Source: Microbacterium sp. Marseille-Q6648 (lineage in GTDB: Bacteria; Actinomycetota; Actinomycetes; Actinomycetales; Microbacteriaceae). From it: a DNA stretch of 64,000 nucleotides. Positions 1,006 to 30,960 of this stretch are shown here, one piece after another. The stretch's first letter is position 1. Every line of letters starts with the position of its first letter. A program made the translations under genes and the position numbers. A model generated the notes under the pieces. The model did not search any database and was not told where the DNA came from. It worked only from the letters and a program-made list of their open reading frames with translations. The DNA is taken from contig NZ_CALPBZ010000002.1 of assembly GCF_943181415.1 (NCBI RefSeq), positions 310,001 to 374,000 on the forward strand, read 5' to 3'.

Positions 1006-1478
1006 CCACCACCGCGCCCCTGCGCATCGTCATCGGCTGCGACGACGCCGGCTTCGACTACAAGGAGATCCTGAAGAAGGACCTGCAGGACAACCCCGGC
1101 GTCGCCTCGGTCGTGGATGTGGGCGTCGACGCCGACGGCCACACGCCGTACCCGAAGGTCGCGATCGAGGCCGCTGAGCAGGTCGCCGCCGGCACCGCCG
1201 ACCGGGCGCTGCTCATCTGCGGCACCGGCCTCGGGGTCGCCATCGCGGCGAACAAGGTCCCCGGCATCCGCGCCGTGACCGCCCACGACTCGTTCTCAGT
1301 CGAGCGGGGCGTGCTCTCCAACGATGCCCAGGTGCTCACGATGGGCCAGCGCGTCGTCGGGATCGAGCTCGCCCGCCGTCTGGTCCGCGAGTGGCTCACC
1401 TACCGCTTCGACCCGACGTCGGCGTCCGCGGCGAAGGTCGCCGTGATCGGCGAGTACGAGAGCACCGGCAGCTGCTGA
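1002..1478 (+). CDS. derI: RpiB-family isomerase, probable D-erythrulose-4-phosphate isomerase
   Basis: 158-residue RpiB/LacA family protein, the usual length for this family. The active-site thiol Cys73 sits in LICGTGLG. The N-terminal phosphate/sugar motif is GCDDAGF, with Asp14 where ribose-5-phosphate isomerase B normally has His (DHAGF). That difference suggests a substrate other than ribose 5-phosphate. In tetritol and apionate pathways a family member converts D-erythrulose 4-phosphate to D-erythrose 4-phosphate, which enters the pentose phosphate pathway. Starts inside the kinase stop (ATGA) and ends overlapping the TIM-like gene (TGATG), so translation is coupled. The specific role is inferred from neighbours. 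Confidence 0.78.
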
Positions 1479-3929: not shown

Positions 3930-3937
3930 GGGGAATC

Positions 3938-4693: not shown

Positions 4694-4694
4694 C

Positions 4695-6425
4695 ATGTCC
4701 TGGTTCTCGTCGTCGCGCCGCTGGGAGAGCGGCCCGTGGTCACTGCAGCTGCGCGACGACGAGATCGCCGATCTGTCGTACGAAGGCACCCGGGTGCTGC
4801 GGAGCGTCCGCACCGTCGTCCGTGATCGCAACTGGGATACCGCGCCGCTGATCGTCGATCGCGTGCGCGACACGGACGTCACCCTGACCCTGCACGTGCG
4901 ATCCGAGGAGCTCGGCTCGAGCTTCCGCGGCATCGTCCGGGTCGAGGCTCGCGCGGCCGGACTGGTGGTGCTCACAGACCTGGAGTCGCAGCATCCGTTC
5001 GAGACGAACCGCACCGGACTCGTCGTGCTGCATCCGCCGCAGCTGGCGGGCACCGCACTGACGGTGACCCACCCCGGCGGGCTGTCGGAGCAGACCGGGT
5101 TCCCCGAAGCGATCAGCCCGCACCAGCCGGTGGTCGACATCGCCGCGCTCGCCTGGGAGCACGCGGGCCTCTCGGTCGCGATGGAATTCTCGGGCGACGT
5201 GTTCGAGATGGAGGACCAGCGCAACTGGACCGACGCCTCGTACAAGACCTACAGCCGTCCGCTGACGCTGCCCTTCCCCTACCCGGTCGCCGCCGGCGAG
5301 CGCGTGCAGCAGTCGGTGATGATCCGGGCGCAGCGGGTGAGGGCGCCCTTCGACGCGGATGCCGGCGCGGACCGCATCACGCTGACTGCGGGTGGGAGAT
5401 TTCCGACGATCGCCCTCGGCGCCGCGACGGGACCCGATCCCGCGCCCGCCGTCGCACCGATCGGGTCGGAGGTGATCGTCGAGCTGGACCTGGCGACTCC
5501 GAACTGGCGCGCCGCGCTGGAACGCGCTGCGCGAGCGGGGCTGCCGCTGGACGTCCGGTTCGTCCTGGACCCGGCTGAGGCCGGCGAGATCGAGGCGCTC
5601 GCCGAGGCGGCCGGGGCCCTGCGGGGCATCGATGTGGTGCGCGTCGGGGCTTTCGAGCGCAGCGGCGACGCGCGCGATGTCACCGACGCCGACGTGGCGG
5701 CCGCGGTGCGCGGTGCGCTGGCCGACGCGGGAGCGGCCGTCGCGGTGATCGGCGGGTCGCGTTCCCACTTCACCGAGCTGAACCGCGAGCGCCAGCGCGT
5801 GCCGGACGATCTCGACGGCTGGGCGACGACCGTGACGCCGCTGTTCCACGCGCTGGGCACGGAGCAGCTCGTCGAGTCGGTGGCGATGCAGCGGCTCGTG
5901 GCGCGGCAGACGGTCGAGGACGCCGGTGGCCGCCCTGTCCACTTCGGTCCGGTGTGCCTGCGCCCGCGCTTCAACAACGTGGCGACCGCTGCGCAGCCAG
6001 GGCCGACCCGCTCCGACCTGTCGGAGGGCTACGGGGCGGAGTTCACCGGGGCGGTGGATCCGCGGCAGTCTGCTGCCGAGCTCGCGGCCTGGACGATCGC
6101 CAGCGCGGCCGCGCTCGGGATCGCCGGTGTCGCGTCCCTGGCCTACTTCGAGGAGTGGGGTCCGCGCGGCATCCGCACCGCGAGCGGTGACCCGCTGCCG
6201 GTCACGACGGCCGTCGAGGAACTCGCCGCGATGGCGGGCGGCGAACTGCTCTCGGGCGAGAGCCCCGACGGCCTGATCTGGGCGATCGGCTCCCGCAGAA
6301 ACGGCGTCGAGAGCGCGCTCGTCGCCAATCTCGCCGCAGCCGCTCGGGTCGTGACGGTGTCTTTGCCATCCGGCGACATCGAGGTGTCCGTGCCCGCGTG
6401 CGGCTGGGTGCGCGTCGGTCGCTGA
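4695..6425 (+). CDS. apnL: D-apionolactone lactonase (ApnL family)
   Basis: 576 residues, cytosolic, no signal peptide. It shows the three-part ApnL layout: N-terminal beta domain (roughly 1-210, with the telltale FEMEDQRNWTDASYKTY stretch), a TIM-barrel middle (roughly 230-540, with HFGPVCLRPRFNN and YFEEWGPRG) and a short C-terminal beta domain. ApnL hydrolyses D-apionolactone to D-apionate, the substrate of ApnO two genes upstream. Starts 1 nt after the SDR stop and is the last gene of the operon, followed by strong hairpins. I recognise the family from memory; no paralogous function is known to me, which makes this the best marker for apiose use in the cluster. Confidence 0.72.
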   Translation: MSWFSSSRRWESGPWSLQLRDDEIADLSYEGTRVLRSVRTVVRDRNWDTAPLIVDRVRDTDVTLTLHVRSEELGSSFRGIVRVEARAAGLVVLTDLESQHPFETNRTGLVVLHPPQLAGTALTVTHPGGLSEQTGFPEAISPHQPVVDIAALAWEHAGLSVAMEFSGDVFEMEDQRNWTDASYKTYSRPLTLPFPYPVAAGERVQQSVMIRAQRVRAPFDADAGADRITLTAGGRFPTIALGAATGPDPAPAVAPIGSEVIVELDLATPNWRAALERAARAGLPLDVRFVLDPAEAGEIEALAEAAGALRGIDVVRVGAFERSGDARDVTDADVAAAVRGALADAGAAVAVIGGSRSHFTELNRERQRVPDDLDGWATTVTPLFHALGTEQLVESVAMQRLVARQTVEDAGGRPVHFGPVCLRPRFNNVATAAQPGPTRSDLSEGYGAEFTGAVDPRQSAAELAAWTIASAAALGIAGVASLAYFEEWGPRGIRTASGDPLPVTTAVEELAAMAGGELLSGESPDGLIWAIGSRRNGVESALVANLAAAARVVTVSLPSGDIEVSVPACGWVRVGR

Positions 6426-14448: not shown

Positions 14449-14494
14449 AGTGTAGGGAGAGGTGGTTGCACAGTCAACCCTGAATCATTATTCA
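14449..14494 (-). promoter_or_regulatory. Promoter and operators for the first sugar importer
   Basis: On the minus strand, TTGACT (14472-14477) and TACACT (14449-14454) are separated by exactly 17 nt, close to the sigma-70 consensus. Two inverted repeats flank or overlap the -35: TGAAT-N4-ATTCA (14481-14494, overlapping the GH2 stop codon) and GGTTG-N6-CAACC (14464-14479, containing the -35). Both are plausible regulator sites. The promoter could be internal to a longer operon starting at the apiosidase-like gene. Confidence 0.65.
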
Positions 14495-17430: not shown

Positions 17431-18950
17431 GGGCGCACTCGGGTGATCAGCAGCGCCAGCGCCTCCCCCTCGGGCAGCGACACCGGCTCGGACTCCCCTG
17501 CGTACGCGTCGTTGCGCTTCACCTCGGTGATGACGAACGGCCGGCCGACGGGTTCGACGGTCATGTTCCAGGTGTCGATCACGCTCACCTCGAAGGTGTC
17601 GCCGACCTCGAGCCGCTCTCCGTCGCCCCCCTGCGGCAGCCGGAACGACCACTGCGCGGGCGCGCGCCGACCGAGGTACTGCACGTACTGGTCGCGGGCG
17701 ACACCGGCCACATGGGCGGGGTCGTCCCATTTGTCGATCGGGTCGAGACCGGGGATGCGCAGGCCTTCGAGGATGCGGCGCAGAAAAGCCAGCCGCGCCG
17801 GCGACTGCCCTCGCAGGCGCCCGCCTTCGACGATGTGCAGACTGCCCGACTCGGTGACGAAGCTCTCTCCGTGCGAGGCATAGCAGCCGGCCACCGTGGC
17901 GATCCAGAACTGGTGCACGAGCTGCGCGGCGTCCAGGTCTCCCCACCGCTCGGGGGTGTCGCCCTCGTACTTGATCTCGTCCAGGACGACGGGTTTGCCG
18001 TAGACGTCGCGATAGAGGTTCGCGCGCCCGAACTCGGTGGTGACATGGCCGTTCTGGATGGAAGCGTGGGTGATCCACGGCTGGTTGTGGTCGTGCAGCT
18101 CCACCCAGTTGTGGATGGAGCGCAGGTGATCGTGCGCGTCGACCCGTGCGAGCAGTTCGCCCATGCGGTCCCACCGCTCCGCCGGACGGTCGGTGAGCTG
18201 GTCGAACTCGTTGCACAGCGACCACCACACGTGCGGGAAGGCGCCCAGCCGGGCCACGAGGTAGCGCAGGTACGCGGCATCCTGCTCCTCGGTCAGCCCG
18301 TCGAGCCCGAAGACCCCCCGGTCGTACGCGTTGAAGACGAGCACGTCGGCCTGGATGCCCCGATCCCCGAGCGCGGCGACCAGATCGTCGAGCCGACGGA
18401 AGAACGCGACGGACGGGCGCGAGACGTCCCAGCCGTCGCCGTCGCGCTCGAAGGGGAGGAGCTCGGGATCATGCTCGACGTAGTTGCCGGCCTGCGGGAA
18501 GACCATGAAGCGCAGCTTGTCGAACCCCGCCTCGGCCACAGCGTCGATCGTCTGCGCGCGCAGCGCCTCGCCCTGGTGGATCCAGTTGTAGACCGTGGTG
18601 CCGACCGGCCGGAACGGCGTGCCGTCGGCGTGAGCGAAGTGGAATCTCCCGGCCACGCGGACCGGACCCCGAGTCGAGGAGGCGACGACGTCGACACGGC
18701 CCTGGCGTCCGTCCAGCAACGGCTCGTCGCTCGCGGTCTGCCAGGTCCAGGACCCCGGCACCTCGGGGGCGAAGCGCACGAGGTATCGCGTGCCGCCGTC
18801 CCAGAACCCCAGCACCGTGCGCTCCTGCGCGCCCGGTCCGACGAACCGCGCCGTCAGCGGGACGCGGTCGGCCGGAATCGGCACGTCGGGACCTTCGAAC
18901 GCGAGCTCGAAGGGCGTGTGGACGGGATGGGATGCGGCGGTTGCGGTCAT
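17427..18950 (-). CDS. Apiosidase-like glycoside hydrolase (DUF5060 + DUF4038, GH140-related)
   Basis: 507 residues with no signal peptide. N-terminal DUF5060 beta domain (FELAFEGPDVPIPADRVPL), then a TIM barrel of the DUF4038 type, the family that includes the GH140 apiosidase of Bacteroides, and a C-terminal beta domain. Candidate catalytic acids are Glu248 (WSLCNEFD) and Glu325 (VVLDEIKYEG). The ATG at 18950 follows GAGGAGG. First gene of the minus-strand operon with the GH2 enzyme and importer. In a region with an apionate pathway, release of D-apiose from glycosides is an attractive role. Family placement is firm in fold, the apiosidase activity is inference; many DUF4038 proteins have other or unknown substrates. 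Confidence 0.82.
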   Translation of the reverse strand: MTATAASHPVHTPFELAFEGPDVPIPADRVPLTARFVGPGAQERTVLGFWDGGTRYLVRFAPEVPGSWTWQTASDEPLLDGRQGRVDVVASSTRGPVRVAGRFHFAHADGTPFRPVGTTVYNWIHQGEALRAQTIDAVAEAGFDKLRFMVFPQAGNYVEHDPELLPFERDGDGWDVSRPSVAFFRRLDDLVAALGDRGIQADVLVFNAYDRGVFGLDGLTEEQDAAYLRYLVARLGAFPHVWWSLCNEFDQLTDRPAERWDRMGELLARVDAHDHLRSIHNWVELHDHNQPWITHASIQNGHVTTEFGRANLYRDVYGKPVVLDEIKYEGDTPERWGDLDAAQLVHQFWIATVAGCYASHGESFVTESGSLHIVEGGRLRGQSPARLAFLRRILEGLRIPGLDPIDKWDDPAHVAGVARDQYVQYLGRRAPAQWSFRLPQGGDGERLEVGDTFEVSVIDTWNMTVEPVGRPFVITEVKRNDAYAGESEPVSLPEGEALALLITRVRP

Positions 18951-19000
18951 CGGCGACCTCCTCGTCGTCAGGGTGGGGCCGCCGGGAGTCCCCGCCGACA

Positions 19001-19014
19001 TTGAAACGTACCAA
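19001..19014. promoter_or_regulatory. Putative LacI-type operator TTGAAACGTACCAA
   Basis: Imperfect palindrome (TTG..ACGT..CAA) 50 nt before the apiosidase-like gene in the divergent region with the first rhamnosidase. It differs from the 8813 site only at two central positions, suggesting the same regulator. Confidence 0.5.
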
Positions 19015-19054
19015 AAGTCTGCCGCACGCACCGTGGAATGGGCTACCATCCGAC

Positions 19055-19066
19055 TGAAACGTTTCG
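19055..19066. promoter_or_regulatory. LacI-type operator TGAAACGTTTCG
   Basis: Contains the perfect 10-bp palindrome GAAACGTTTC, the classic LacI-family site. It lies 16 nt upstream of the GH78 start, just after a -10-like TACCAT (19044-19049), a position suited to repression. Confidence 0.65.
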
Positions 19067-19082
19067 AAATCGAAGAGGATTC

Positions 19083-21674
19083 ATGAACGCACGCGTCGAC
19101 CGCCCGCGCATCGAGCACCACCGCACCGCCCTGGGGATCGGCGAGGCCTCACCGCGACTGTCGTGGCGGGTGGTGGCGGCCGATGCGGGGTGGCGACAGC
19201 GGGCGTACCGGGTGGTCATCGAGCGCGAGGGCAACGAGGCGACGCACGAGGTGGCGTCCGCCGAGCAGGTCCTCGTCCCGTGGCCGGGCGAGGCGCTGCG
19301 CTCCCGCGATCGGGCCCGCGTGCACGTTCAGGTCCGCGGCGAGGATGGGCAGTGGTCGGCGGCGTCCCCCGCCGTCGAGGTCGAAGCGGGGCTGCTGCGC
19401 CCTGAGGACTGGACAGCGCGCCCGGTGGGAGCGCGCCGACTCGAGCCCCGCGACTCCGACACGCGCCGTCCGACCCTGGTCCGTCGGGAGTTCTCCGTCT
19501 CGGCGGGCCTCGTGCGAGCGCGCCTCTACGCCACCGCGCACGGGCTCTACGAGGCCGAAGTGAACGGCCGGCGCACCGGCGACGACACCCTGTCGCCCGG
19601 GTGGACGTCGTACGACGCACGGTTGCGGTACTACACGTACGACGTCACCGATCTGCTGCATCCAGGGGCCAACGCGATCGGCGCGTGGCTGGCCGACGGA
19701 TGGTACCGCGGACGGATCGGGTGGTACGAGGGCTTCCGAAATGTGTTCGGCGAGGACCTCTCCTTCCTCGGACAGCTCGAGCTGACGTACGCCGACGGCT
19801 CTCGCGAGGTGATCGCCACGGACGCCTCGTGGCGTGCCGCCGACAGCCCGATCCTCCGCTCCGGCATCTACGACGGCGAGGACCACGACGCGCGGCTGGA
19901 GCAGCACGGCTGGTCCTCGCCCGGCTTCGACGACTCGGCGTGGGAGCCGGTCGCCGTGCGTCACCGGGATCCCGCGACGCTCGTCGCCCCCACCGCGCCG
20001 CCGGTGCGGTGCACCCAGGAGCTCGCGCCGGTCGCGGTGCTCACCTCTCCGGGCGGCAACCGGATCCTCGACTTCGGTCAGAACCTCGCCGGCCGCGTAA
20101 GGATCCGGGTGTCGGGTCCGGCCGGCGCGGTGGTGCGCCTGCGGACGGCCGAGGTGCTGCAGGACGGAGAGCTCTACACGCGCCCGCTGCGGTCGGCCCG
20201 ATCGACCGATCACTACACCCTCGCCGGCCGCCCGGAAGGCGAGGAGTGGGAACCCCGGTTCACCTTCCACGGGTTCCGCTACGTCGAGGTCGACGGGTGG
20301 CCGGGCGATCTCGACGCCGATGCGGCCGCCGGCGGCCTCGTCGCCCGCGTCCTCCACACCGATCTCGAGCGCACCGGCTGGTTCACCTGCTCCGACCCGG
20401 ACGTCGATCGCCTGCACGAGAACGTGGTGTGGGGAATGCGCGGCAACTTCGTCGACCTGCCCACCGACTGCCCGCAGCGTGACGAGCGAGCGGGATGGAC
20501 CGGCGACATCCAGGTGTTCGGGCCGACGGCATCCTTCCTCTTCGACGTCTCGGGCATGCTCTCCGGCTGGCTGCGCGATCTCGAAGCCGACCAGCTGCCC
20601 GACGGCACCGTGCCCTGGTACGTGCCGGTGATCCCCGCCCACCGCATGTGGACCCCGATCCGCCCGGGTGCCGCGTGGGGCGACGCCGCCACGATCCTGC
20701 CGTGGACGCTGTACGTGCGGTTCGCGGACGCCGGGGTGGTGCGCGCGCAGTTCGACAGCGCCCGGCGCTGGGTCGACCTCGTCGAGAAGCTCGCGGGCGA
20801 TGACCGCGTGTGGGACGAGGGGTTCCAGCTCGGCGACTGGCTGGACCCCGCGGCACCGCCCCACGACCCCGCCGATGCGCGCACCGACCGGTACCTCGTC
20901 GCGACGGCCTACTTCGCGCGCTCGGCGCGGATCGTGTCGTGGATGGCGGAGCTTCTGGGCGACGCGGACGCGCACGAGCGGTACGCCCGCCTCGCCGACG
21001 AGGTCACGACCGCCTTCGCCGGCGCGTACCTCCGCCCCGACGGACGGATGAGCAGCGACGCCCCCACCGCGTACGCCCTGGCCCTCATGTTCGACCTGCT
21101 GCCGGACGACGACCGTCCGGCAGCAGGCCGGAGACTGGGCGAGCTGGTACGCGAGGCGGGCAACCGGATCGCCACGGGCTTCGTGGGAACGCCCCTGGTG
21201 TCGGATGCCCTCACCGCTGCGGGCGAGATCGACACCGCCTACGACCTCCTGCAGGAGCGCGGCTGCCCGTCGTGGCTCTACCAGGTCGACCAGGGCGCCA
21301 CCACGGTGTGGGAACGCTGGGACTCGCTGCTTCCCGACGGGACGGTGAACCCCGGGGCGATGACCTCGTTCAACCATTACGCGCTCGGCGCCGTGGCCGA
21401 CTGGATGCACCGCGTCGTGGCGGGGCTCGCACCGGATGCCCCCGGGTACCGGCGGATCCGCTTCGCACCGCGACCCGGCGGCGGCCTCACCCACGCCGCA
21501 GCGCGTCACCTCACCCCTTACGGCGAGGCCGCGATCTCGTGGCGGCTCGAACACGGCTCCCTCCATGTGGAGGTCGTCGTGCCCGTCGGCGCCGAGGGCG
21601 TGCTGGACCTGCCGGGACGACCCGCCGAGACACTCGGGCACGGGACGCACACGAGGGTGTCGCCGCTCGCGTGA
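19083..21674 (+). CDS. Glycoside hydrolase family 78 alpha-L-rhamnosidase (first copy)
   Basis: 863 residues, no signal peptide. N-terminal fibronectin-like and beta-sandwich domains, an (alpha/alpha)6 barrel and a C-terminal beta domain. The family motif CPQRDERAGWTGD carries the proposed general acid Glu468, and TTVWERWDS carries the general base Glu744. The ATG at 19083 follows AGAGGA; an upstream in-frame ATG lies inside the operator region. It cleaves terminal alpha-L-rhamnose from imported glycosides such as flavonoid or pectic fragments. Divergent from the apiosidase-like operon, sharing a 132-bp regulatory region with two LacI-type sites. Confidence 0.93.
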   Translation: MNARVDRPRIEHHRTALGIGEASPRLSWRVVAADAGWRQRAYRVVIEREGNEATHEVASAEQVLVPWPGEALRSRDRARVHVQVRGEDGQWSAASPAVEVEAGLLRPEDWTARPVGARRLEPRDSDTRRPTLVRREFSVSAGLVRARLYATAHGLYEAEVNGRRTGDDTLSPGWTSYDARLRYYTYDVTDLLHPGANAIGAWLADGWYRGRIGWYEGFRNVFGEDLSFLGQLELTYADGSREVIATDASWRAADSPILRSGIYDGEDHDARLEQHGWSSPGFDDSAWEPVAVRHRDPATLVAPTAPPVRCTQELAPVAVLTSPGGNRILDFGQNLAGRVRIRVSGPAGAVVRLRTAEVLQDGELYTRPLRSARSTDHYTLAGRPEGEEWEPRFTFHGFRYVEVDGWPGDLDADAAAGGLVARVLHTDLERTGWFTCSDPDVDRLHENVVWGMRGNFVDLPTDCPQRDERAGWTGDIQVFGPTASFLFDVSGMLSGWLRDLEADQLPDGTVPWYVPVIPAHRMWTPIRPGAAWGDAATILPWTLYVRFADAGVVRAQFDSARRWVDLVEKLAGDDRVWDEGFQLGDWLDPAAPPHDPADARTDRYLVATAYFARSARIVSWMAELLGDADAHERYARLADEVTTAFAGAYLRPDGRMSSDAPTAYALALMFDLLPDDDRPAAGRRLGELVREAGNRIATGFVGTPLVSDALTAAGEIDTAYDLLQERGCPSWLYQVDQGATTVWERWDSLLPDGTVNPGAMTSFNHYALGAVADWMHRVVAGLAPDAPGYRRIRFAPRPGGGLTHAAARHLTPYGEAAISWRLEHGSLHVEVVVPVGAEGVLDLPGRPAETLGHGTHTRVSPLA

Positions 21675-21680
21675 CGGCCC

Positions 21681-21717
21681 GGGCTGCAGCCGGCTCGCTC
21701 GGGGCCGGCTACAGCCC
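21681..21717. terminator. Shared hairpin between convergent genes
   Basis: GGGCTGCAGCCGGC (21681-21694) pairs with 21704-21717 with one mismatch across a 9-nt loop. It lies just after the GH78 stop and overlaps the last codons of the racemase-like gene, so it can terminate both transcripts. Confidence 0.6.
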
Positions 21718-22368
21718 GTCGACCGCCTCGCGCAGGCGGCGGATGCCGGAGCGCAGGCTCGTGAGGACGGGCACATCGACGTCGGCGGCGTCGGCCGCCG
21801 ACGCCATGGAGGCCTGCGCGAGAACGATGACGTCGGTGTCGGGCGCACGTCGCTCGATCGCCGCGGCGACAAGGCGGTCGTGCGCGGGCCGGTCGCCTCC
21901 GGCAACGGCCGCGAACGCGCCGTCGATCACCTCGCTCGAGATCTGCGGGACCCGACCGGCGAGCTCGGCCCGCTCGCGCACGAGCGCGATTGTCGGGCCG
22001 AGCGTCGTCGGGAGCGTCGCCAGCACCGTGATGCGCTCCCCCGCCGAGACGGCTTCATCGGCCATGGCCTCGTCGATGCGCATGACCGGAACCCCCAGTC
22101 GCTCCGAGGTGGGGGCGGCCAACTGCGAGATCGACGAGCAGGTCAGCATCACGATGTCGGCACCCGCCGACGCGGCGGCCTGCACGAGGTCGGCCACCCG
22201 GTCGGGCACCGAATCCGCGCGTTCGGCGTCAGCGAGGTCGGCCACGATGCGGTCGTCCAGGTAGTTGATCGGGGTCACGCCCGGGAGGTGCTCCTTCGCG
22301 AGTTCCGCGACGAGCGGGATGACGACCGCTCCGGTGTGGAGGAAGGCCACGCGTGGTGTGTCGGACAT
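21709..22368 (-). CDS. Asp/Glu-racemase-superfamily protein lacking the second catalytic Cys
   Basis: 219 residues, start chosen at MSDTPRVAFLHTG. Pseudo-symmetric racemase fold with a first active-site cysteine, Cys77, in MLTCSSIS. The region expected to hold the second cysteine reads VLAQASMAS, with Ala in its place. Racemases need both, so a different reaction is likely (for example a decarboxylase-like or one-base enzyme). Divergent from the GH127-RLP operon. It may process an unusual acid sugar of that route, but no specific substrate can be read from the sequence. Confidence 0.8.
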   Translation of the reverse strand: MSDTPRVAFLHTGAVVIPLVAELAKEHLPGVTPINYLDDRIVADLADAERADSVPDRVADLVQAAASAGADIVMLTCSSISQLAAPTSERLGVPVMRIDEAMADEAVSAGERITVLATLPTTLGPTIALVRERAELAGRVPQISSEVIDGAFAAVAGGDRPAHDRLVAAAIERRAPDTDVIVLAQASMASAADAADVDVPVLTSLRSGIRRLREAVDGL

Positions 22369-22490: not shown

Positions 22491-24479
22491 ATGACGGCCA
22501 CCGCCGCGCTCCGCGCACACGCCGCCCTCACCCCGCTCACGGCGAGCGGCGCCCGGTGGGAAGGGGGCTTCTGGGCCGCGATCGCCCGTCGCACCCACGA
22601 GGTGACCGTTCCCTCGATGTGGAACATGCTGCAGGACCCCTCGGTGAGTCCGGGATTGACCAACTTCCGGGTCGCAGCGGGGCTGGAGCCCGGCATCCAT
22701 CTCGGACCTCCGTTCATGGACGGCGACTTCTACAAGTGGCTCGAATCGGCGATCACCGATCTCGAGACCTCCCCCGACCCCGAGCTGGCCGCGCGCATCG
22801 AGGGCATCGCGGCGCTGATCGCGTCGGTGCAGCGCGAGGACGGCTACGTGCACACGCCGACGGCGATCGCCGCCCGCAACCGCGAGCAGGTCGTCGCGCT
22901 CGCGGACCGCTTCAACTTCGAGACGTACAACCTCGGGCACCTCATCACGGCGGGCGTGCGCCACCACCGGGTCACCGGTTCGACGACGCTGCTCGAGGTC
23001 GCCGAGGGAGCCGCCCGCTTCCTCGAGATGCTCGCGACCGACAAGCCCCGAGAGCTCGCCCGCAGCGCGATCTGCCCGTCGCACTACATGGCGGTCATCG
23101 ACCTGTATCGCGCGACGGGCGACGACCGGTACCTGCGCCTCGCCGAGGCGTTCGTCCGCGTGCGCGACGACTTCGACGAGGGCGGCGACGACAATCAGGA
23201 CCGTCTCCCGGTGCGCGAGCAGACGACCGTCGCCGGCCACGCGGTGCGCGCGAACTACCTCTACGCCGGCCTCGCCGACCTCGTCGCCGAGACCGGGGAT
23301 CCGCAGCTGCGCGACGTGCTGGATCGACTCTGGCGCGACGTCGTCGACACCAAGCTCTACATCACCGGCGGCTGCGGGGCGCTCTACGACGGCGCCTCGC
23401 CCGACGGCCACCCCTGGCAGAGCGAGATCAGCCGCGTCCACCAGGCCTACGGCCGCCCTTACCAACTGCCGAACACCACCGCTCACAACGAGTCCTGCGC
23501 GCAGATCGGCATGATCCTGTGGAGCGAGCGCATGCTGGCCCTCGGCGCCGACGGCCGGTACGCGGACGTCATCGAGAACATCTCCGTCAACTCCCTGCTG
23601 GCGAGCATCGGCCTCGAAGGATCGACGTACTTCTACACCAACCCGCTCCGTCAGGTGCGGGACCTTCCTTTCCCGCTCCGGCGCGCCGGTGACACCGCGC
23701 TGCACCCCACGCCCGCGCCGCCGCCCTCGGACGAGCGCGTGCGGCAGGAGTACCTCAGCTGCTTCTGCTGCCCGCCGAACATCGCGCGCACGCTCGCCCA
23801 GCTGCACGAGCGGATCGCCTCGTCGTCCGAGGAGGGGCTCTTCGTCCACCAATACGGCGGGACCGGCATCCGGCATGCCTTCGACGAGGGCCGGATGCTG
23901 GGGCTCGAAGAGCGGTCGGACTACCCGTGGGACGGTCGCGTCGTCTTCACCGTCACCGAGGCGGCGGGCGCAGTGCCGCTGCACCTGCGGGTTCCGGGCT
24001 GGTCGGAGGACGCGACGGTCAGCGTGAACGGCCGACGGTTCGATGCCCCCGAGACCGACGGGTACGTCCGACTCGACCGCTCCTGGTCTCCCGGCGACAC
24101 CATCGAACTCGACCTGCCGATGCCGGTGCGCGTGCTGCGCGGGCACCGACTCGCCGAGGAGATCACCAACCAGGTGGCCGTCCAGCGCGGCCCCGTCGTC
24201 TACTGCCTCGAGAGTCTCGACCTTCCGGACGGGGTCGTTCTGGAGCGGGCCGCATTCCGGCGCGGTACGGCGCTGCGTCCGGTCGAGGCCGAGATCGCCA
24301 GCCAGCGGGTGATCGTGCTCGAGACCGAGCTCGCGATCCTCCCCGCAGGCGGCGATCACCTGTATGACGACCTCGACGACGCGCCCGTGCAGACGGCGCC
24401 CGCCCGCCTGATCCCGTACTTCGCCTGGAGCAACCGGGGCCCCTCCGAGATGTCGGTGTGGCTGCCGGTGGTGTGGTGA
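22491..24479 (+). CDS. Glycoside hydrolase family 127 (DUF1680), beta-L-arabinofuranosidase-like
   Basis: 662 residues, cytosolic. (Alpha/alpha)6 barrel followed by beta-sandwich domains. The zinc and nucleophile constellation known from HypBA1 (one Glu, three Cys) is intact: Glu334 and Cys336 in AHNESCAQ, Cys426 and Cys427 in CFCCPPN. The thiol of the last cysteine is the expected nucleophile. ATG chosen for AAAGGA 6 nt upstream. It is followed after only 4 nt by the RuBisCO-like gene. Family members release beta-L-arabinofuranose; one in Bacteroides acts on another branched acid sugar of rhamnogalacturonan II, from memory. Given its operon partners, an apio-furanosyl or related substrate deserves consideration (inference). 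Confidence 0.9.
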   Translation: MTATAALRAHAALTPLTASGARWEGGFWAAIARRTHEVTVPSMWNMLQDPSVSPGLTNFRVAAGLEPGIHLGPPFMDGDFYKWLESAITDLETSPDPELAARIEGIAALIASVQREDGYVHTPTAIAARNREQVVALADRFNFETYNLGHLITAGVRHHRVTGSTTLLEVAEGAARFLEMLATDKPRELARSAICPSHYMAVIDLYRATGDDRYLRLAEAFVRVRDDFDEGGDDNQDRLPVREQTTVAGHAVRANYLYAGLADLVAETGDPQLRDVLDRLWRDVVDTKLYITGGCGALYDGASPDGHPWQSEISRVHQAYGRPYQLPNTTAHNESCAQIGMILWSERMLALGADGRYADVIENISVNSLLASIGLEGSTYFYTNPLRQVRDLPFPLRRAGDTALHPTPAPPPSDERVRQEYLSCFCCPPNIARTLAQLHERIASSSEEGLFVHQYGGTGIRHAFDEGRMLGLEERSDYPWDGRVVFTVTEAAGAVPLHLRVPGWSEDATVSVNGRRFDAPETDGYVRLDRSWSPGDTIELDLPMPVRVLRGHRLAEEITNQVAVQRGPVVYCLESLDLPDGVVLERAAFRRGTALRPVEAEIASQRVIVLETELAILPAGGDHLYDDLDDAPVQTAPARLIPYFAWSNRGPSEMSVWLPVVW

Positions 24480-24483
24480 TCCG

Positions 24484-25740
24484 GTGAGCGCCGCGCACGT
24501 CGTCGCGACGTACCACGTCGAGACCTCCCTCCCGCTGGAGCACGCGGCCGAGGTCCTCGCCGGAGAGCAGTCCACCGGCACCTTCGTCCGCGTGGAGCGC
24601 GAGTCCGACGCGGTGCGGGCGCGGTTCGCGGCGCAGGTCGAGAGCGTGGAAGAGGTGCCGCTGACGGGCGCCTGCGCGCTGCCCGGCTCGGTCGGCGATC
24701 CGGGCGCGCGCCGCCGCGCCGTCCTGCGGCTGCGCTTCCCGCTCGAGAACTTCGGTCCGTCGGTGCCCAACCTGCTCGCCGCCGTCGCCGGGAACCTCTT
24801 CGAGCTCAAGGAGCTGTCGGCCATCAAGCTGATGGACCTCGATCTTCCTCCCGCGTTCGCGCGACGTTACGCCGGACCGCAGTTCGGCGTGACGGGCACC
24901 CGCCGACTCGTGGGACGCCCGGACGGCGCGATGATCGGAACGATCGTCAAGCCCAGCATCGGCCTCGCCCCCGCCGAGCTCGCCGAGCTGGTGGGCGAGC
25001 TCGCGACGGCGGGGGTGGACTTCATCAAGGACGACGAACTGCAGGGCAACGGCTCACACGCCCCCCTGGCCGAGCGCATCCGCGCCGTCATGCCGGTGCT
25101 CGAGCGCCACGCCGACCGCACCGGCGTCAAGCCGATGTACGCCTTCAACATCACCGACGACATCGACCGCCTCGAGGCCAACCACGATCTCGTGGTCGCG
25201 GCCGGCGGGACGTGCATCATGGTGTGCATCAACATGATCGGTCTCTCGGGCCTGGACTACATCCGCCGACGCTCGCAGGTGCCCATCCACGGACACCGCG
25301 CCATGTTCGGCGCGGTCAGCAGGTCGCAGCAGGTCGGCATCCACTTCCGGGCCTGGCAGAAGCTCGTGCGCCTGGCCGGTGCCGATCACCTCCACACCAA
25401 CGGGATCTCGAACAAGTTCTACGAGTCCGACGCCGAGGTCCTCGCCGCCATCGCCGCGGTGCGCGAGCCGCTCCTCGGCCTCACGCCGACCGTGCCGGTG
25501 CTGTCGTCGGGGCAGTGGGGAGGACTCGCGCACGCCACGTACGCCGAGGTGGGCACCACCGACCTGCTCGTCCTCGCCGGCGGCGGCATCCACGGGCACC
25601 CCGACGGCGCGCGATCGGGCGTGGCGAGCATGCGCGATGCCTGGGCGTCGGCGGCGGCCGGTGAGACCATCGACGACGCGCTCGAGCGCTCCGAGCCGCT
25701 GCGTCGCGCCGCAGAGAGGTTCGGCCCGGTCCGTGTGTAG
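24484..25740 (+). CDS. RuBisCO-like protein, probable 3-oxo-isoapionate-4-phosphate transcarboxylase/hydrolase or decarboxylase
   Basis: 418 residues, GTG start 4 nt after GH127. RuBisCO large-chain fold with the metal/carbamate motif FIKDDE: Lys182, Asp184 and Glu185 match Lys201, Asp203 and Glu204 of RuBisCO. Also kept are Lys156 (like K175), His271 and Arg272 (HRAMFG), His304 and loop-6 Lys311. The second lysine of the KPK motif is Ser158, so it is not a true RuBisCO. Two RuBisCO-like enzymes of D-apionate catabolism, OiaX (decarboxylase) and OiaT (splits to 3-phosphoglycerate and glycolate), work after an acid-sugar kinase. The next gene is such a kinase and the one after resembles glycolate oxidase, which favours the OiaT reaction. 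Confidence 0.85.
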   Translation: MSAAHVVATYHVETSLPLEHAAEVLAGEQSTGTFVRVERESDAVRARFAAQVESVEEVPLTGACALPGSVGDPGARRRAVLRLRFPLENFGPSVPNLLAAVAGNLFELKELSAIKLMDLDLPPAFARRYAGPQFGVTGTRRLVGRPDGAMIGTIVKPSIGLAPAELAELVGELATAGVDFIKDDELQGNGSHAPLAERIRAVMPVLERHADRTGVKPMYAFNITDDIDRLEANHDLVVAAGGTCIMVCINMIGLSGLDYIRRRSQVPIHGHRAMFGAVSRSQQVGIHFRAWQKLVRLAGADHLHTNGISNKFYESDAEVLAAIAAVREPLLGLTPTVPVLSSGQWGGLAHATYAEVGTTDLLVLAGGGIHGHPDGARSGVASMRDAWASAAAGETIDDALERSEPLRRAAERFGPVRV

Positions 25741-27007
25741 CCCGCAGGTCGCGTTCTACGGAGACGACTTCACCGGAAGCGTCGACGTGCTGCTGCAGTT
25801 CGCGCGCCGCGGCTGGCGCGGACGCCTCTTCGTGGGCGTTCCCGACGCCGCACTGCTCGACGCTGCAGCTCGGGAGTGCGACGTCGTGGGAATCGCCGGG
25901 ATCGCCCGATCGCTCCCGACCGGCGACCTCGACCGCGAGGTGCGCCCGGCGTTCGAGGCGCTGCTGCGGCTCGGCCCTCACGTGGTGCAGTACAAGGCAT
26001 GCTCGACCGCCGACTCGTCGCCCGCGATCGGCAGCCTCGGCCGGGTGATCGAGATCGGCCGGGACGTCGTCGGCGAGGGCACGGTGCCCCTGCTGTTCGC
26101 CCAGCCGGACTTCGGCCGGTACACCCTCTTCGGCCACCACTTCGCGCGTGAGGGATCGGTGGTCCACCGACTCGACCGGCAGCCGACGATGTCGACGCAC
26201 CCGTCCACGCCGATGACGGAATCTGATCTGGCCCGGCACCTGTCGCAGCAGACCGCACTCCCGATCGGCGGCATCCCCTTCACCTCGTACCGCACCCCCT
26301 CTGCGCTGCGCGACGACCTTCGGGCCTCGGATGCCGCAGCCGTCGTCCTGGACGCCGCCGACGACGCCCACCTCATCCTCATCGGCGAGGCCGTCCTGGG
26401 GCTCCCGGCACCGGTGTTCGCACTCGGCTCCGGCGGGCTGTCGCACGGGCTCGCTGCGGCGCGGCCCGGTCCCGGCGGCGGGGTGCCGTCGTCGACGCCG
26501 TCGCGGGGACCCGTGCTCGCGGTGTCGGGTAGCAGGTCCGCGACGACGCGCCGTCAGATGGATGTCGCGGCGGACGCCGGCTGGCTGACCGGCCCTCTGC
26601 CGGCAGACCCGGCATCCCTGCCCGACACCCTGGGCCGGGTCGTCGACGCGCTCGCCGCGGGCCGCAGCGTGGCTCTCGGATCGGACGGCGCCGACCTGTC
26701 GCACGCTGGGGCCGACGCCCTGCCGGCGATCGCCCGCGCCGCGGCGGTCGTCATCGACGAGGCCGTCAGGGCGCGCGCCACGCGGCGCGTGATCGTCTGC
26801 GGCGGCGACACCTCGAGCCGGGTCGTGACCCTCCTCGGCGTCTCGTCGCTGTCGCTCGCGGCGAACCCGACGGCGAACGTCGTTCTGCTGACCGCGCAGT
26901 CGGCGGACCCCGCGATCGACGGCCTCGAGATGCTCCTCAAGGGCGGGCAGGTGGGCGACGACGACCTCTTCGTCGCGACCCGGGCGCTCGGCGGCGGTCC
27001 CGCGTGA
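25733..27007 (+). CDS. oiaK: Four-carbon acid sugar kinase family (DUF1537), probable 3-oxo-isoapionate kinase
   Basis: 424 residues. The GTG start is placed inside the RuBisCO-like gene, 8-nt overlap, because homology begins at once with the substrate-domain motif AFYGDDFTGS (residues 7-16). N-terminal sugar-binding domain (Asp11, Asp12; KACSTADSSPAIGS) and C-terminal nucleotide-binding domain (LAVSGSRSATTRRQ; VCGGDTSSRV; GLEMLLKGGQVG). The family phosphorylates acid sugars such as threonate, erythronate and 3-oxo-isoapionate. Beside a RuBisCO-like protein and with ApnO encoded 22 kb away, OiaK is the best reading: ATP + 3-oxo-isoapionate to the 4-phosphate. Family firm; substrate inferred. 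Confidence 0.85.
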   Translation: MCSPQVAFYGDDFTGSVDVLLQFARRGWRGRLFVGVPDAALLDAAARECDVVGIAGIARSLPTGDLDREVRPAFEALLRLGPHVVQYKACSTADSSPAIGSLGRVIEIGRDVVGEGTVPLLFAQPDFGRYTLFGHHFAREGSVVHRLDRQPTMSTHPSTPMTESDLARHLSQQTALPIGGIPFTSYRTPSALRDDLRASDAAAVVLDAADDAHLILIGEAVLGLPAPVFALGSGGLSHGLAAARPGPGGGVPSSTPSRGPVLAVSGSRSATTRRQMDVAADAGWLTGPLPADPASLPDTLGRVVDALAAGRSVALGSDGADLSHAGADALPAIARAAAVVIDEAVRARATRRVIVCGGDTSSRVVTLLGVSSLSLAANPTANVVLLTAQSADPAIDGLEMLLKGGQVGDDDLFVATRALGGGPA

Positions 27008-29841
27008 GCATCGCCGTTCGACGCCGTGTGCCGGCCGGTGTGGCCGCCGCGGTCGCCGAGGCGTCTCGTCTCAAGACCGGCGCGCTGGACCGCGCGGCGT
27101 ACGCGCCCGACGCGTCGCACTACCTGCGCACGCCCGAGGCGGTCATCGTTGCCGCCGATGCCGCGGAGGTGGGGCGCGTCATGCGCGCCGCGTCCGAGTC
27201 GCGCATGCCTCTCACGTTCCGTTCGGGCGGTACGAGCCTGTCGGGCCAAGCCGCGGGCGACGGGCTGCTCGTCGACGTCCGGCGCGGCTTCCGCGACATC
27301 GAGGTGACCCACGGCGGGCGCCGCGTGCGGGCACAGCCCGGCGCCACGGTCCGGCAGGTGAACGCGCGCCTGGCGCCCTACGGGTTCCGCCTGGGCCCCG
27401 ACCCCGCCAGCGAGGCGGCGTGCACCATCGGCGGAGTGGTCAACAACAACTCCAGCGGCATGGCATGCGGCACGGACGAGAACACCTACCGCACGCTGGA
27501 GTCGCTCGTCTTCGTCCTCCCCTCCGGCACGGTGGTCGACACCGCCGCGCCCGACGCCGACTCCGCGCTGGCCGCCGCCGAGCCCGACCTGGTGGACGCC
27601 CTCCTGCGGCTGCGCCGACGAGTGGTGTCGAACCCGTCGTCGGTCGACAGCATCCGCCGCTCCTTCGCGATGAAGAACACGATGGGCTACGGGGTCAACG
27701 CCTTCCTCGACCACTCCACGCCCGCCCAGCTGCTGGCCCATCTGGTGATCGGCAGCGAGGGGACGCTCGCCTTCGTGGCGGAGGCGACCTACCGAACCGT
27801 GCCGGTGCGCCCGCGGGTCGCCACGGCACTGGCGGTCTTCGACGACCTGGATGCCGCGACGCGGGCGCTCCCCCGGCTGGTCGAGACCGGCGCGGCCACG
27901 CTCGAGCTCATGGACGCCACCTCGCTGCGCGTGGGGCAGCGATCGGCCGGAGCGCCTTCGCAGATCCTGGGCTTCGAGGTGCGCGACGAGGCGGCGCTGC
28001 TGATCGAGTACCACGCGTTCGAGGAGGACGAGCTGTCGCAGAGCATCGCCGAGGGCGACCGCGCGCTCGCCTCGCACCGCCTGCGCGCACCCGCCCCGCT
28101 CGTCACCGACGCGGCGATGCGCACTGCCGCCTGGAAGCTCCGGAAGGGCCTGTACGCCTCGGTCGCCGGCGCCCGCCCGAGCGGAACCACGGCCCTGCTC
28201 GAGGACGTGGTGGTCCCCGTCCCTGAACTCGCCGCCACGTGCGCCGCGCTCCAGCACCTCTTCGCCCGTCACGGCTACGACGACAGCGTGATCTTCGGTC
28301 ACGCCAAGGACGGCAACATCCACTTCATGCTGACCGACCGCTTCGACAGCGACCGGCAGCTGGCTCGTTTCGCGGGCTTCACCGAGGACATGGTCGACCT
28401 CGTCCTCGCAGCCGGCGGCAATCTGAAGGCCGAGCACGGCACCGGGCGGGCGATGGCGCCGTACGTCCGACGGCAGTACGGCGACGAGCTGTACGACGTG
28501 ATGTGCGAGCTCAAGCGGGCCTGCGATCCCGCCGGCATCCTCAACCCCGGGGTCATCATCGACGACGACCCCGACGCGCACATGCGGCAGATCAAGCCGG
28601 CGGTGTCGATCGAAGCCGAGGTCGACCGGTGCGTCGAGTGCGGATACTGCGAGCCGGTCTGCCCGTCGAAGGATCTCACCCTCACCCCGCGGCAGCGCAT
28701 CGTGGCCCGCCGCGCGATCGCCCGCGCCGAAGCCGCCGGCGATCGCGACCTCGTCCGCGAGCTGGAACGGGAGTACGACTACGCCGCAGTCCAGACCTGC
28801 GCCGTGGACGGCATGTGCCAGACGGCGTGCCCGGTGCTGATCAACACCGGCAGCCTCGTCAAACGGCTGCGCCGCGAGAGCGCCGGCGCGCTCGCCGATG
28901 CCGCGTGGGCGGGTGCCGCCCGCGGGTGGGGGCCTGCGAGCCGCGCCGCGGGCTCGGCGCTCACCGCGGCGCGCCACGCGCCGGCCGGACTCGTCACGGC
29001 CGCGACCGAGGTCGGCCGCGCCGTCCTCGGCGACGAGGTCGTCCCGCGCTACTCCGAGGATCTGCCGCGGGGTGGTGCGCCGCGCTCCAGGCTGGGGCCC
29101 GAGATCGGCTCCGGATCGCAACCGCCCGTCGCGGTGTACCTGCCGGCCTGCGTGAACACGATGTTCGGGCCCGCCGACGAGGGGGTCGGCGTCGCCGAGG
29201 CCTTCCGCCGGCTGGCCGAGCGCGCCGGCATCCGTCTGGTCGTGCCCGACGGGATCGACGCACTCTGCTGCAGCACTCCGTGGACGTCGAAGGGGCACGC
29301 GGCCGGGCGCGCGATCATGCTCGAGCGTGTGGCCTCCGCCGTGGCCGAGGTCACACGCGGCGGTGAGCTGACCCTCGTCACGGATGCCTCGAGCTGCACC
29401 GAGGGCTTCATCCACCTTCTCGCCGATGCGGGGGTGACGGCCCGCGTCGAAGACGCCGTCGCGTTCGCCGAGCGCGAGCTGCTCCCCCGCCTGGGCGAGG
29501 TCTCGCCGCTGGTGGCGAGCCTGGCCCTGCATCCGACGTGCTCATCCGCCCAGCTGGGGCTCGATCCGTCGCTGCGCCGGGTGGCCGAAGCGGTCGCGGT
29601 CGACGTCGTGGTGCCGGAGTCGTGGGGCTGCTGCGCGTTCGCGGGCGACCGCGGGATGCTGCATCCCGAACTCACGGCTTCGGCGACCGCCGCCGAAGCA
29701 GCCGAGGTGCGGTCCCTCGGCGCCGAGGCGCACGCGTCGTGCAACCGCACATGCGAGCTCGGGATGACGCGAGCCACCGGCGCGGACTACCGCCATGTGC
29801 TCGAGCTGCTCGAAGAGGCGACGCGCCCCACCGTCGGTTGA
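27004..29841 (+). CDS. FAD-binding and iron-sulfur oxidoreductase, GlcD-GlcF-type fusion (glycolate/2-hydroxyacid oxidase)
   Basis: 945 residues from a GTG overlapping the kinase stop (GTGA). N-terminal FAD-PCMH domain (LTFRSGGTSLSGQA; GGVVNNNSSGM), FAD-oxidase C-terminal domain (FGHAKDGNIHF; KAEHGTGRAMAP), then two 4Fe-4S motifs (Cys543, 546, 549, 553; Cys599, 605, 609) and two CCG-type domains (LCCSTPW; GCCAFAGDRG). This is GlcD and GlcF fused in one chain; relatives oxidise D-lactate, glycolate or D-2-hydroxyglutarate and pass electrons to quinone or another acceptor. As last gene after the RuBisCO-like protein, glycolate to glyoxylate is the most economical role. D-lactate is the main alternative. 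Confidence 0.87.
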   Translation: MSIAVRRRVPAGVAAAVAEASRLKTGALDRAAYAPDASHYLRTPEAVIVAADAAEVGRVMRAASESRMPLTFRSGGTSLSGQAAGDGLLVDVRRGFRDIEVTHGGRRVRAQPGATVRQVNARLAPYGFRLGPDPASEAACTIGGVVNNNSSGMACGTDENTYRTLESLVFVLPSGTVVDTAAPDADSALAAAEPDLVDALLRLRRRVVSNPSSVDSIRRSFAMKNTMGYGVNAFLDHSTPAQLLAHLVIGSEGTLAFVAEATYRTVPVRPRVATALAVFDDLDAATRALPRLVETGAATLELMDATSLRVGQRSAGAPSQILGFEVRDEAALLIEYHAFEEDELSQSIAEGDRALASHRLRAPAPLVTDAAMRTAAWKLRKGLYASVAGARPSGTTALLEDVVVPVPELAATCAALQHLFARHGYDDSVIFGHAKDGNIHFMLTDRFDSDRQLARFAGFTEDMVDLVLAAGGNLKAEHGTGRAMAPYVRRQYGDELYDVMCELKRACDPAGILNPGVIIDDDPDAHMRQIKPAVSIEAEVDRCVECGYCEPVCPSKDLTLTPRQRIVARRAIARAEAAGDRDLVRELEREYDYAAVQTCAVDGMCQTACPVLINTGSLVKRLRRESAGALADAAWAGAARGWGPASRAAGSALTAARHAPAGLVTAATEVGRAVLGDEVVPRYSEDLPRGGAPRSRLGPEIGSGSQPPVAVYLPACVNTMFGPADEGVGVAEAFRRLAERAGIRLVVPDGIDALCCSTPWTSKGHAAGRAIMLERVASAVAEVTRGGELTLVTDASSCTEGFIHLLADAGVTARVEDAVAFAERELLPRLGEVSPLVASLALHPTCSSAQLGLDPSLRRVAEAVAVDVVVPESWGCCAFAGDRGMLHPELTASATAAEAAEVRSLGAEAHASCNRTCELGMTRATGADYRHVLELLEEATRPTVG

Positions 29842-29862: not shown

Positions 29863-30870
29863 TCAGCGGCCGGTGGATTCCCGGACGACGAGCTCGGGCC
29901 GGAACCGGATGCGACGCTCGTGCCCGCCGTCGGGGTCCGCGAGGTCCTTCAGCAGCAGGTCGACGGCGGAGTAGCCGATGAGGTGCGCCGGCTGGCGGAT
30001 CGAGCTCAGCGGCACGACGGTGGCCGCGGCGAAGTCGATGTCGTCGTAGCCGATGAGCGCGATGTCGTCGGGCACGCGGACGTCGGCCATGAGGGCGAAC
30101 GCCTGCAGCACGCCGACGGCCAGCAGGTCGTTGGCGGCGAACACCGCATCGGGCCGGTCGGCCGGATCCCGCGCGAGCAGCTGCTCACCGGCATCCCTTC
30201 CCTGCAGCACGGTCAGGGCGGGCATCTCGATCACCTCCAGCGACGCGCCGGGATGCGCGGCGACCGCGTGGCGCGCTCCTTCCAGACGGTCCACGACCTG
30301 CCTCGTCGAGCGCGGCCCGCCGACGAAGGCGATGCGGCGGCGTCCCTGCTCGATGAGGTGCGCCACCGCGAGGTGACCACCCTCGACGTCATCGACGGCG
30401 ACGGATCCGAATCCGGCATCCTCGACCTCGCGGTCGACGAGGATCACCGGCACGCCGCCGTCGCGCAGTCGCTCGAGCAGCCCGAGGTCGTCGGTCGTCG
30501 GAGTCACGAGCACGCCGTTGACCCGCTGCTCGCGGAACAGGTCGATGTACGCGGTCTCGCGGTCCTGCCGCTCGTCGCTGTTGCCGAGCAGCACCGTCAT
30601 GCCGCCCTCGGCAGCGCGCGCCTCTGCGCCGCGGGCGACCTCGGCGAAGAACGGGTTGCCCACGTCGAGCACGATGAGGCCGATGCTGCGGCTGCGGCCG
30701 GCCCGCAGCTGGCGCGCCGCGTCGTTGCGGACGAAACCGAGGTCGGCGATGGCCTTCTGCACCCGGGCGACGGTCTCGGGCGCGACCTTCGCCGGACGAT
30801 TGAGGACGTTCGAGACGGTGCCCACCGAGACGGATGCCGCGAGCGCGACATCGCGAACGCTCACCGCCAT
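29863..30870 (-). CDS. LacI-family regulator, likely controller of the rhamnose regulon
   Basis: 335 residues; ATG preceded by GAGAGGAG. Helix-turn-helix VSVRDVALAASVSVGTVSNVLN, hinge RQLRAGRSRS, then sugar-binding domain ending FRPELVVREST. It lies 90 nt downstream of the second GH78 gene, on the same strand, and converges with the GlcDF gene. Three near-identical LacI-type sites (TGAAACGnTTCA) precede the adjacent rhamnosidase, the second importer and rhaM, so this protein is the natural candidate repressor, with rhamnose or a derivative as inducer. Clear paralogue of the LacI gene at 6849-7859. Confidence 0.93.
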   Translation of the reverse strand: MAVSVRDVALAASVSVGTVSNVLNRPAKVAPETVARVQKAIADLGFVRNDAARQLRAGRSRSIGLIVLDVGNPFFAEVARGAEARAAEGGMTVLLGNSDERQDRETAYIDLFREQRVNGVLVTPTTDDLGLLERLRDGGVPVILVDREVEDAGFGSVAVDDVEGGHLAVAHLIEQGRRRIAFVGGPRSTRQVVDRLEGARHAVAAHPGASLEVIEMPALTVLQGRDAGEQLLARDPADRPDAVFAANDLLAVGVLQAFALMADVRVPDDIALIGYDDIDFAAATVVPLSSIRQPAHLIGYSAVDLLLKDLADPDGGHERRIRFRPELVVRESTGR

Positions 30871-30960
30871 GGTGCTTCTCCTCTCGCGCGCCGGCGCGCG
30901 GTCGGGCACGCTCGTCTGGGCCGAGTGTAGGGCACGGGAGGACCTCCGAAGCCCGCTCGC

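Follow-up and report, generated by a model that had tools for sequence, protein, structure and literature searches.

Within a 64,000-nucleotide stretch of the genome of Microbacterium sp. Marseille-Q6648 (contig NZ_CALPBZ010000002.1, positions 310,001 to 374,000 of the forward strand; hereafter the window), a compact operon joins a GH127 glycosidase gene to genes for a RuBisCO-like protein (RLP), a DUF1537-type kinase, and an FAD/Fe-S oxidase. A preliminary description of this DNA had presented the last three genes, overlapping by 8 and then 4 nt, as a second branch of apionate catabolism. The coordinates of the open reading frames (ORFs) confirm these overlaps (25733-25740 between RLP and kinase, 27004-27007 between kinase and oxidase), and the run comprises four genes rather than three because the GH127 gene ends (stop at ca. 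24479) 4 nt ahead of the RLP. The RLP, kinase, and oxidase genes all start with GTG and encode 418, 424, and 945 amino acids (aa), respectively; the 8-nt overlap rests on choosing GTG 25733 as the kinase start, as the mechanical ORF begins at 25379. For GH127, the mechanical ORF opens at TTG 22443 and ATG 22491 is the preferred start. A gene resembling those of Asp/Glu/hydantoin racemases (RAC) lies divergently from GH127 on the other strand. Comparative sequence evidence leads us to favor, with modest confidence, the view that this operon encodes a catabolic route for aceric acid, a rare branched sugar acid of rhamnogalacturonan II (RG-II) in pectin; we infer all of its reactions. The genes concerned are:

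21709..22368, minus strand: RAC, with a single catalytic Cys, proposed to isomerize aceric acid from aldose to ketose (PF01177, alignment, AlphaFold2)
22491..24479, plus strand: GH127 glycosidase of the aceric acid hydrolase type (Pfam, NF049879)
24484..25740, plus strand: RLP with an OiaT-type active site, proposed transcarboxylase/hydrolase of the aceric acid ketose phosphate (Pfam, OiaX model, trees, residues)
25733..27007, plus strand: OiaK-like kinase of DUF1537 type (four-carbon acid sugar), proposed to act on the aceric acid ketose (Pfam, NF042436)
27004..29841, plus strand: single-chain 2-hydroxyacid dehydrogenase with FAD and Fe-S domains, proposed to oxidize lactate (Pfam, context of homologues)

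The substrate is suggested by the glycosidase. Beyond its Pfam GH127 match (324 bits), the protein aligns over nearly its full length with model NF049879 (753 bits; curated cut-off 950), which we take to represent the aceric acid hydrolase of the Bacteroides thetaiotaomicron RG-II system. It is 42-46% identical to six Bacteroidota GH127 proteins that pass this cut-off and to one planctomycete GH127 (943 bits); identity to the passing GH127 of a Pedobacter locus, L123, is 43%. It differs from the known hydrolase by its lower score and by sharing an operon with catabolic enzymes. This resemblance together with the operon position makes a route for aceric acid breakdown the most likely interpretation.

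We compared 98 RLP loci (L numbers), comprising 80 from a genome collection, six regions of plasmid records, and 12 regions of Microbacteriaceae relatives. The 80 are the best of 512 confirmed hits obtained with an alignment of the window clade, so that class shares are biased toward that clade; two genomes are present twice (L026/L075 and L027/L082), and several loci end at contig ends. Genes were counted by tblastn, and the RAC count was reproduced with six RAC queries. A kinase match accompanies the RLP at 92/98 loci and L069 repeats the order GH127-RLP-kinase-oxidase on one strand, which argues for an association beyond chance. GH127 is found at 35 loci and RAC at 48, with both at 34, and the sole GH127 locus without RAC (L141) also lacks a kinase match. 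The apionate genes ApnO/ApnL, present at 31 loci, are in contrast rare beside RAC (5/48, namely L079, L081, L095, L116, and L136, versus 26/50 loci without RAC), while GH127, RAC, and ApnO/ApnL are all missing at 23. The order GH127-RLP-kinase-RAC-sodium symporter recurs in Bacteroidota L123, L138, L143, and L146, each with a GH127 above the NF049879 cut-off, and in L145, whose GH127 is a fragment cut by the end of the contig; planctomycete L107 carries GH127, RLP, kinase, RAC, and symporter.

The same linkage is apparent at the level of genomes. Among 249 Microbacteriaceae genomes, 19 have an RLP match (six at at least 62% identity, five at 48-50%, one alone at 32%, and seven weak), and NF049879 scores of 638-765 bits occur in exactly the six with a close-clade RLP (hypergeometric probability 3e-12, with kinship ignored and genomes treated as independent). 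The next GH127 reaches 435 bits, so that the window-type GH127 stands apart from others of this family by score; none of the 249 genomes passes the cut-off of 950. In the order of Pedobacter L123, 73/201 genomes pass it (1106-1214 bits, next 499), and 24 carry an RLP above 580 bits, with one further match of 39.5 bits not counted. RAC occurs in the same 24 genomes, all of which are among the 73 (1.6e-12, again ignoring kinship and treating genomes as independent). ApnL is present in 1/201 of these genomes and 0/24 of the RLP-bearing ones. Genome searches with NF049879 for the 80 collection loci, which omitted L069-L089 (21/80), found that 11/12 Bacteroidota genomes of the RAC-linked clade pass the cut-off; the twelfth, L145, has the contig-end fragment. 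The preliminary description had named 3-oxo-isoapionate as the substrate, which fits poorly with a linked hydrolase resembling that for aceric acid, with the absence of RAC from 26/31 loci with apionate genes, and with the missing ApnL in RLP-bearing Pedobacter relatives.

The RLP itself (Pfam RuBisCO_large, 217 bits) scores 412.7 bits against the OiaX model NF042437 (cut-off 700), 244 bits against form III RuBisCO, 160 and 196 bits against two models of 2,3-diketo-5-methylthiopentyl-1-phosphate enolase, and 159.9 bits against the MtnW model TIGR03332 (cut-off 513.6). On these scores, we rejected a role in methionine salvage. The OiaX cut-off alone does not separate the window RLP because ten other scanned RLPs, including those linked to ApnO/ApnL, also fall below it (387-518 bits). 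The best solved relative is 3nwr, annotated as a rubisco-like protein, and two trees, neither of which holds an MtnW row, assign the window protein to an actinobacterial clade of the OiaX/OiaT branch. Model scores and trees thus agree with the earlier assignment to this branch rather than to MtnW.

Within the branch, the active site is OiaT-like rather than OiaX-like, in line with the OiaT reaction of the earlier proposal, when judged by alignment against ApnO/ApnL-linked RLPs rather than a proven OiaT sequence. The window RLP has E28, T33, N104, K156, K182, D184, E185, H271, H304, and K311, presumably the catalytic residues of RuBisCO. These are conserved in 27 and 15 RAC-linked rows (with L141 among the 15) and in a subset of 21 ApnO/ApnL-linked rows, except that a single row has gaps at 28 and 33. 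By contrast, annotated OiaX proteins have D28, G104, and Q304 (window numbering) in 5/5 cases where the window RLP has E, N, and H. Given the absence of these residues, we rejected an OiaX-type decarboxylase as the main interpretation of the RLP.

RAC-linked RLPs form two separate clades, one of Actinomycetota and one of Bacteroidota/Planctomycetota/Verrucomicrobiota. Constraining them to a single clade lowers the log-likelihood by 285 units (p-AU 5e-6; quick tree, with the group chosen after the first tree). The first tree omitted the short L037, L075, L082, and L131, and the constrained one comprised 85/102 rows after 17 had been dropped for long branches, near copies, or missing RAC (L141). 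Since the same neighbors surround both RLP lineages, a shared function is favored. The contig of L083 bears the title Planococcus sp. APC 4015, yet its RLP sits inside the actinobacterial clade, reflecting either transfer or an assembly that is mislabelled or mixed.

The kinase combines the SBD_N (164 bits) and NBD_C (60 bits) domains of DUF1537-type enzymes and reaches 247.7 bits against the OiaK model NF042436 (cut-off 700), where the ApnO-linked kinase of L139 reaches 569. Known kinases of this type use substrates of the form HOOC-C(OH)(R)-CO-CH2OH, where R is H for 3-oxo-tetronate kinase and CH2OH for OiaK, and the ketose of aceric acid (R = CH(OH)CH3) would therefore be a plausible substrate. 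RAC matches PF01177 (70 bits), and its AlphaFold2 model (pLDDT 96.4) has the racemase fold by structure comparison. In an alignment of 40 of the 49 RAC genes known from the 48 loci plus the window, C77, the N-terminal catalytic Cys, is invariant (40/40 rows), and Gln185 replaces the second catalytic Cys in all 40; alignment to allantoin racemase likewise sets the Gln at its Cys. Glutamate and allantoin racemases employ two Cys bases, and a few one-base racemases exist, according to an excerpt of PMC8142540. RAC thus has the fold and lacks the pair of Cys required by two-base Asp/Glu-type enzymes; it further differs from the family by its low identity to solved members (9-21% among the matches listed) and by its linkage to a sugar-acid operon. 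Whether it is the aldose-ketose isomerase of aceric acid appears to us evenly balanced. At the Acidobacteriota loci L116 and L136, RAC genes (68% mutual identity) accompany RLP, kinase, and ApnO in genomes without an NF049879 match, and RAC may there function close to apionate.

The oxidase is a single chain comprising FAD_binding_4, FAD-oxidase_C, 4Fe-4S, and CCG domains; Pfam thus bears out both the 2-hydroxyacid oxidase proposed previously and the other two protein families of the operon. Its best NCBIfam model is GlcD (TIGR00387, 188.4 bits, cut-off 567.9), it falls below the YdiJ cut-off as well, and its best solved relative is a glycolate oxidase. Full-length homologues of at least 1000 bits occur in 48/249 Microbacteriaceae genomes (56 at at least 835 bits), including all those with a close-clade RLP, where one homologue lies no more than 10 kb from the RLP (6/6 genomes). 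Across the 98 loci, the oxidase is present at 13, each of which also has RAC and GH127. Away from RLPs, a lactate permease gene adjoins the homologue or lies one gene off in 4/11 readable neighborhoods (H84 lacked annotation), namely in Skermanella, in Azospirillum together with a LutB/LldF gene, and at L160 and L161 (2/8 Microbacteriaceae loci); none was seen beside the homologue in Streptomyces chartreusis (H81) and at six Microbacteriaceae loci. The enzyme resembles FAD/Fe-S D-lactate dehydrogenases and GlcD in its domains and in the lldP neighbors of some homologues, one of which also has a lutB-like gene nearby, and departs from them by its scores and its place inside an RLP operon. The permease neighbors make lactate a likelier substrate than glycolate, which had been suggested as the small product and which we set aside as the main reading. 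We consider lactate the probable substrate and go no further because the link is seen in only 4/11 neighborhoods. At L158, one of these six Microbacteriaceae loci, the homologue lies in an operon that looks suited to recycling N-acetylmuramic acid, from which D-lactate is released, with neighbors that we take from their first residues to be AnmK, NagB, and NagA.

Taken together, these observations suggest the following route. The ketose of aceric acid, HOCH2-CO-C(OH)(COOH)-CH(OH)-CH3, equals 3-oxo-isoapionate with CH(OH)CH3 replacing CH2OH. Aceric acid itself is 3-C-carboxy-5-deoxy-L-xylose, according to an excerpt of PMC8218411. It would be freed by GH127 and isomerized by RAC from the aldose to the ketose, whose CH2OH the kinase would phosphorylate. 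The RLP would then shift the carboxylate to the neighboring carbon and hydrolyze the C-C bond to yield 3-phosphoglycerate and lactate (L-lactate from C3 to C5), and the FAD/Fe-S enzyme would oxidize the latter to pyruvate. OiaT performs the analogous reaction on 3-oxo-isoapionate 4-phosphate. In our assessment, aceric acid is likely the substrate of the module, and an OiaT-type reaction of the RLP is probable. More tentatively, and with somewhat less than even confidence, the whole may be a novel aceric acid pathway of bacteria with two novel enzyme functions, namely a one-base isomerase of racemase fold and an RLP transcarboxylase/hydrolase that cleaves a branched six-carbon ketose phosphate to 3-phosphoglycerate and L-lactate. 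This set would have been put together on two occasions, once in Actinomycetota and once in Bacteroidota/Planctomycetota/Verrucomicrobiota.

The nearest known kind is the apionate pathway with OiaK and OiaT, reportedly described by Carter et al. in 2018 (a study that PMC6302742 cites), which shares the adjacent kinase and RLP, the RLP branch, the RuBisCO-type catalytic residues conserved between the window RLP and its ApnO/ApnL-linked relatives, and the predicted 3-phosphoglycerate. The window operon differs in lacking ApnO/ApnL, in its linkage to an aceric-type GH127 and RAC, and in a predicted lactate instead of glycolate; its novelty would lie in the substrate, the racemase-like partner, and lactate as a product. 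In the open-licence literature, as judged by titles and abstract openings, we found neither a described bacterial route for aceric acid nor a paper joining RG-II with RuBisCO-like proteins. If true, one small gene set would explain the use of aceric acid by bacteria of several phyla, the RuBisCO superfamily would gain another substrate and the racemase fold a sugar-isomerase role, and an open question in RG-II breakdown would be reduced to a few simple assays.

Several observations weigh against this aceric acid route. The window GH127 remains below the curated cut-off (753 versus 950 bits), and RAC occurs without a strong GH127 in the genomes of L101, L111, L133, and L142 (best NF049879 scores of 514, 440, 326, and 498 bits) and without any NF049879 match in those of L116 and L136. 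Conversely, apionate genes accompany the RLP at L126 and L131 even though NF049879 scores 638 and 907 bits in the respective genomes. Streptomyces and Kribbella RLPs, the nearest to the window clade, have neither GH127 nor RAC at the locus, and the five such genomes searched give NF049879 scores of 391-415 bits. Among the 73 Pedobacter-order genomes with a passing aceric acid hydrolase, 49 have neither RLP nor RAC, and aceric acid must therefore have another fate there or stay unused. Compared with the apionate-linked clade, the two RAC-linked RLP clades have no excess of residues shared solely by them (12 positions versus 18 and 22). All 13 oxidase loci are actinobacterial and none is from Bacteroidota. 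Known members of the oxidase family act on D-2-hydroxyacids or glycolate, whereas retention at C4 predicts L-lactate, a mismatch within the proposed route. Finally, TPI or RpiB relatives are found at none of the RAC loci, which says little because only 1/5 OiaX loci shows them.

The L/D mismatch would disappear if RAC were a lactate racemase that turns L-lactate from the RLP into D-lactate for a D-type oxidase, with some other enzyme isomerizing aceric acid. RAC has the fold and family of a racemase, and a few one-base racemases are known (excerpt of PMC8142540). This explanation is nevertheless unlikely, given that the second Cys, needed by glutamate and allantoin racemases according to the same excerpt, is Gln in 40/40 rows, that Bacteroidota loci lacking the oxidase still have RAC, and that no other isomerase candidate is common to the loci of both clades (ca. 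10 kb, ORFs of at least 110 aa). We regard as similarly improbable that the RLP only decarboxylates the aceric acid derivative to a 5-deoxypentulose 1-phosphate, which an aldolase would cleave to dihydroxyacetone phosphate and acetaldehyde. OiaX, of the same branch, is a 3-oxo-isoapionate-4-phosphate decarboxylase according to an excerpt of PMC6302742, and a RhaD-type aldolase is encoded in the window and at L069, L083, L085, and L086. However, the window RLP lacks the OiaX-type D28, G104, and Q304, a strong aldolase match is present at just 4/48 RAC loci, and the oxidase would be left without an obvious role.

Two further alternatives, which replace aceric acid altogether, seem to us very unlikely. 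The second apionate branch as previously proposed, in which kinase and RLP convert 3-oxo-isoapionate to 3-phosphoglycerate and glycolate and the oxidase takes up the glycolate, draws on the RLP branch and kinase family shared with OiaX/OiaT and OiaK, on an apiose gene set inside the same window, and on the GlcD and glycolate oxidase relatives of the oxidase (188 bits, cut-off 568). Against it stand the distribution of apionate genes (5/48 RAC loci versus 26/50 others), the linkage of an aceric-type GH127 and its co-occurrence with the RLP across genomes, the OiaC/DAK-like route that the apiose set owns, and the lactate permease genes near some oxidase homologues. Alternatively, the module could serve another branched or acidic RG-II sugar, or the end of an oligosaccharide released by GH127, in line with the sub-cut-off score of the window GH127 and with Streptomyces and Kribbella loci that hold RLP and kinase without GH127 or RAC. 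Yet Bacteroidota members of the same gene set carry a GH127 above the cut-off, and the chemistry that we infer suits aceric acid without added steps.

The window looks like a pectin island and contains two GH78 genes (one of them listed below), two ABC transporter gene sets, and probable rhamnose genes besides the following features:

1..6425, plus strand: separate apiose/apionate set (DAK, RpiB, TPI, OiaC-like, ApnO-like, SDR, ApnL-like); context, outside the proposed route
14488..18228, minus strand: GH2 glycosidase with its true start inside the ORF and homologues in many related loci (Pfam, tblastn map)
17427..19121, minus strand: apiosidase-like protein (Pfam Apiosidase, 73 bits)
19038..21674, plus strand: GH78 alpha-L-rhamnosidase upstream of the operon on the same strand (Pfam Bac_rhamnosid6H, 406 bits)
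29863..30909, minus strand: LacI-type regulator convergent with the operon and perhaps linked to it (Pfam LacI)

The apiose set ends 18 kb from the operon, inside which there is no ApnO/ApnL, and with its OiaC-, DAK-, TPI-, and RpiB-like enzymes it could complete apionate breakdown without the RLP. Its ApnL-like protein scores 221 bits (cut-off 750), its RpiB passes the actinobacterial Rpi model, and the OiaC-like and ApnO-like genes receive no NCBIfam name at 1e-30.

Other RLP loci show different neighbors. On a Croceibacterium plasmid (L021, 13187-16269), a different GH127 gene overlaps the RLP and is followed by an OiaK-like kinase in an apparent pectin island; we discounted this locus as independent support since its GH127 reaches only 87 bits against the aceric acid model. 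A protein of ca. 570-700 aa, encoded at L022 (12002-13720, minus strand; no Pfam match) and also at L038, L090-L092, L094, L096, L106, and L133, has RLP and kinase genes in its vicinity at Streptomyces, Kribbella, and Paenibacillus loci, adjoins the RAC-RLP-kinase run at L133, and may be an unknown glycosidase occupying the place of GH127. Five Bacilli loci (L098, L100, L103, L109, and L124) combine RLP and kinase with a class II aldolase and a Zn-dehydrogenase, three of them with TRAP transporters, and perhaps represent a further RLP pathway.

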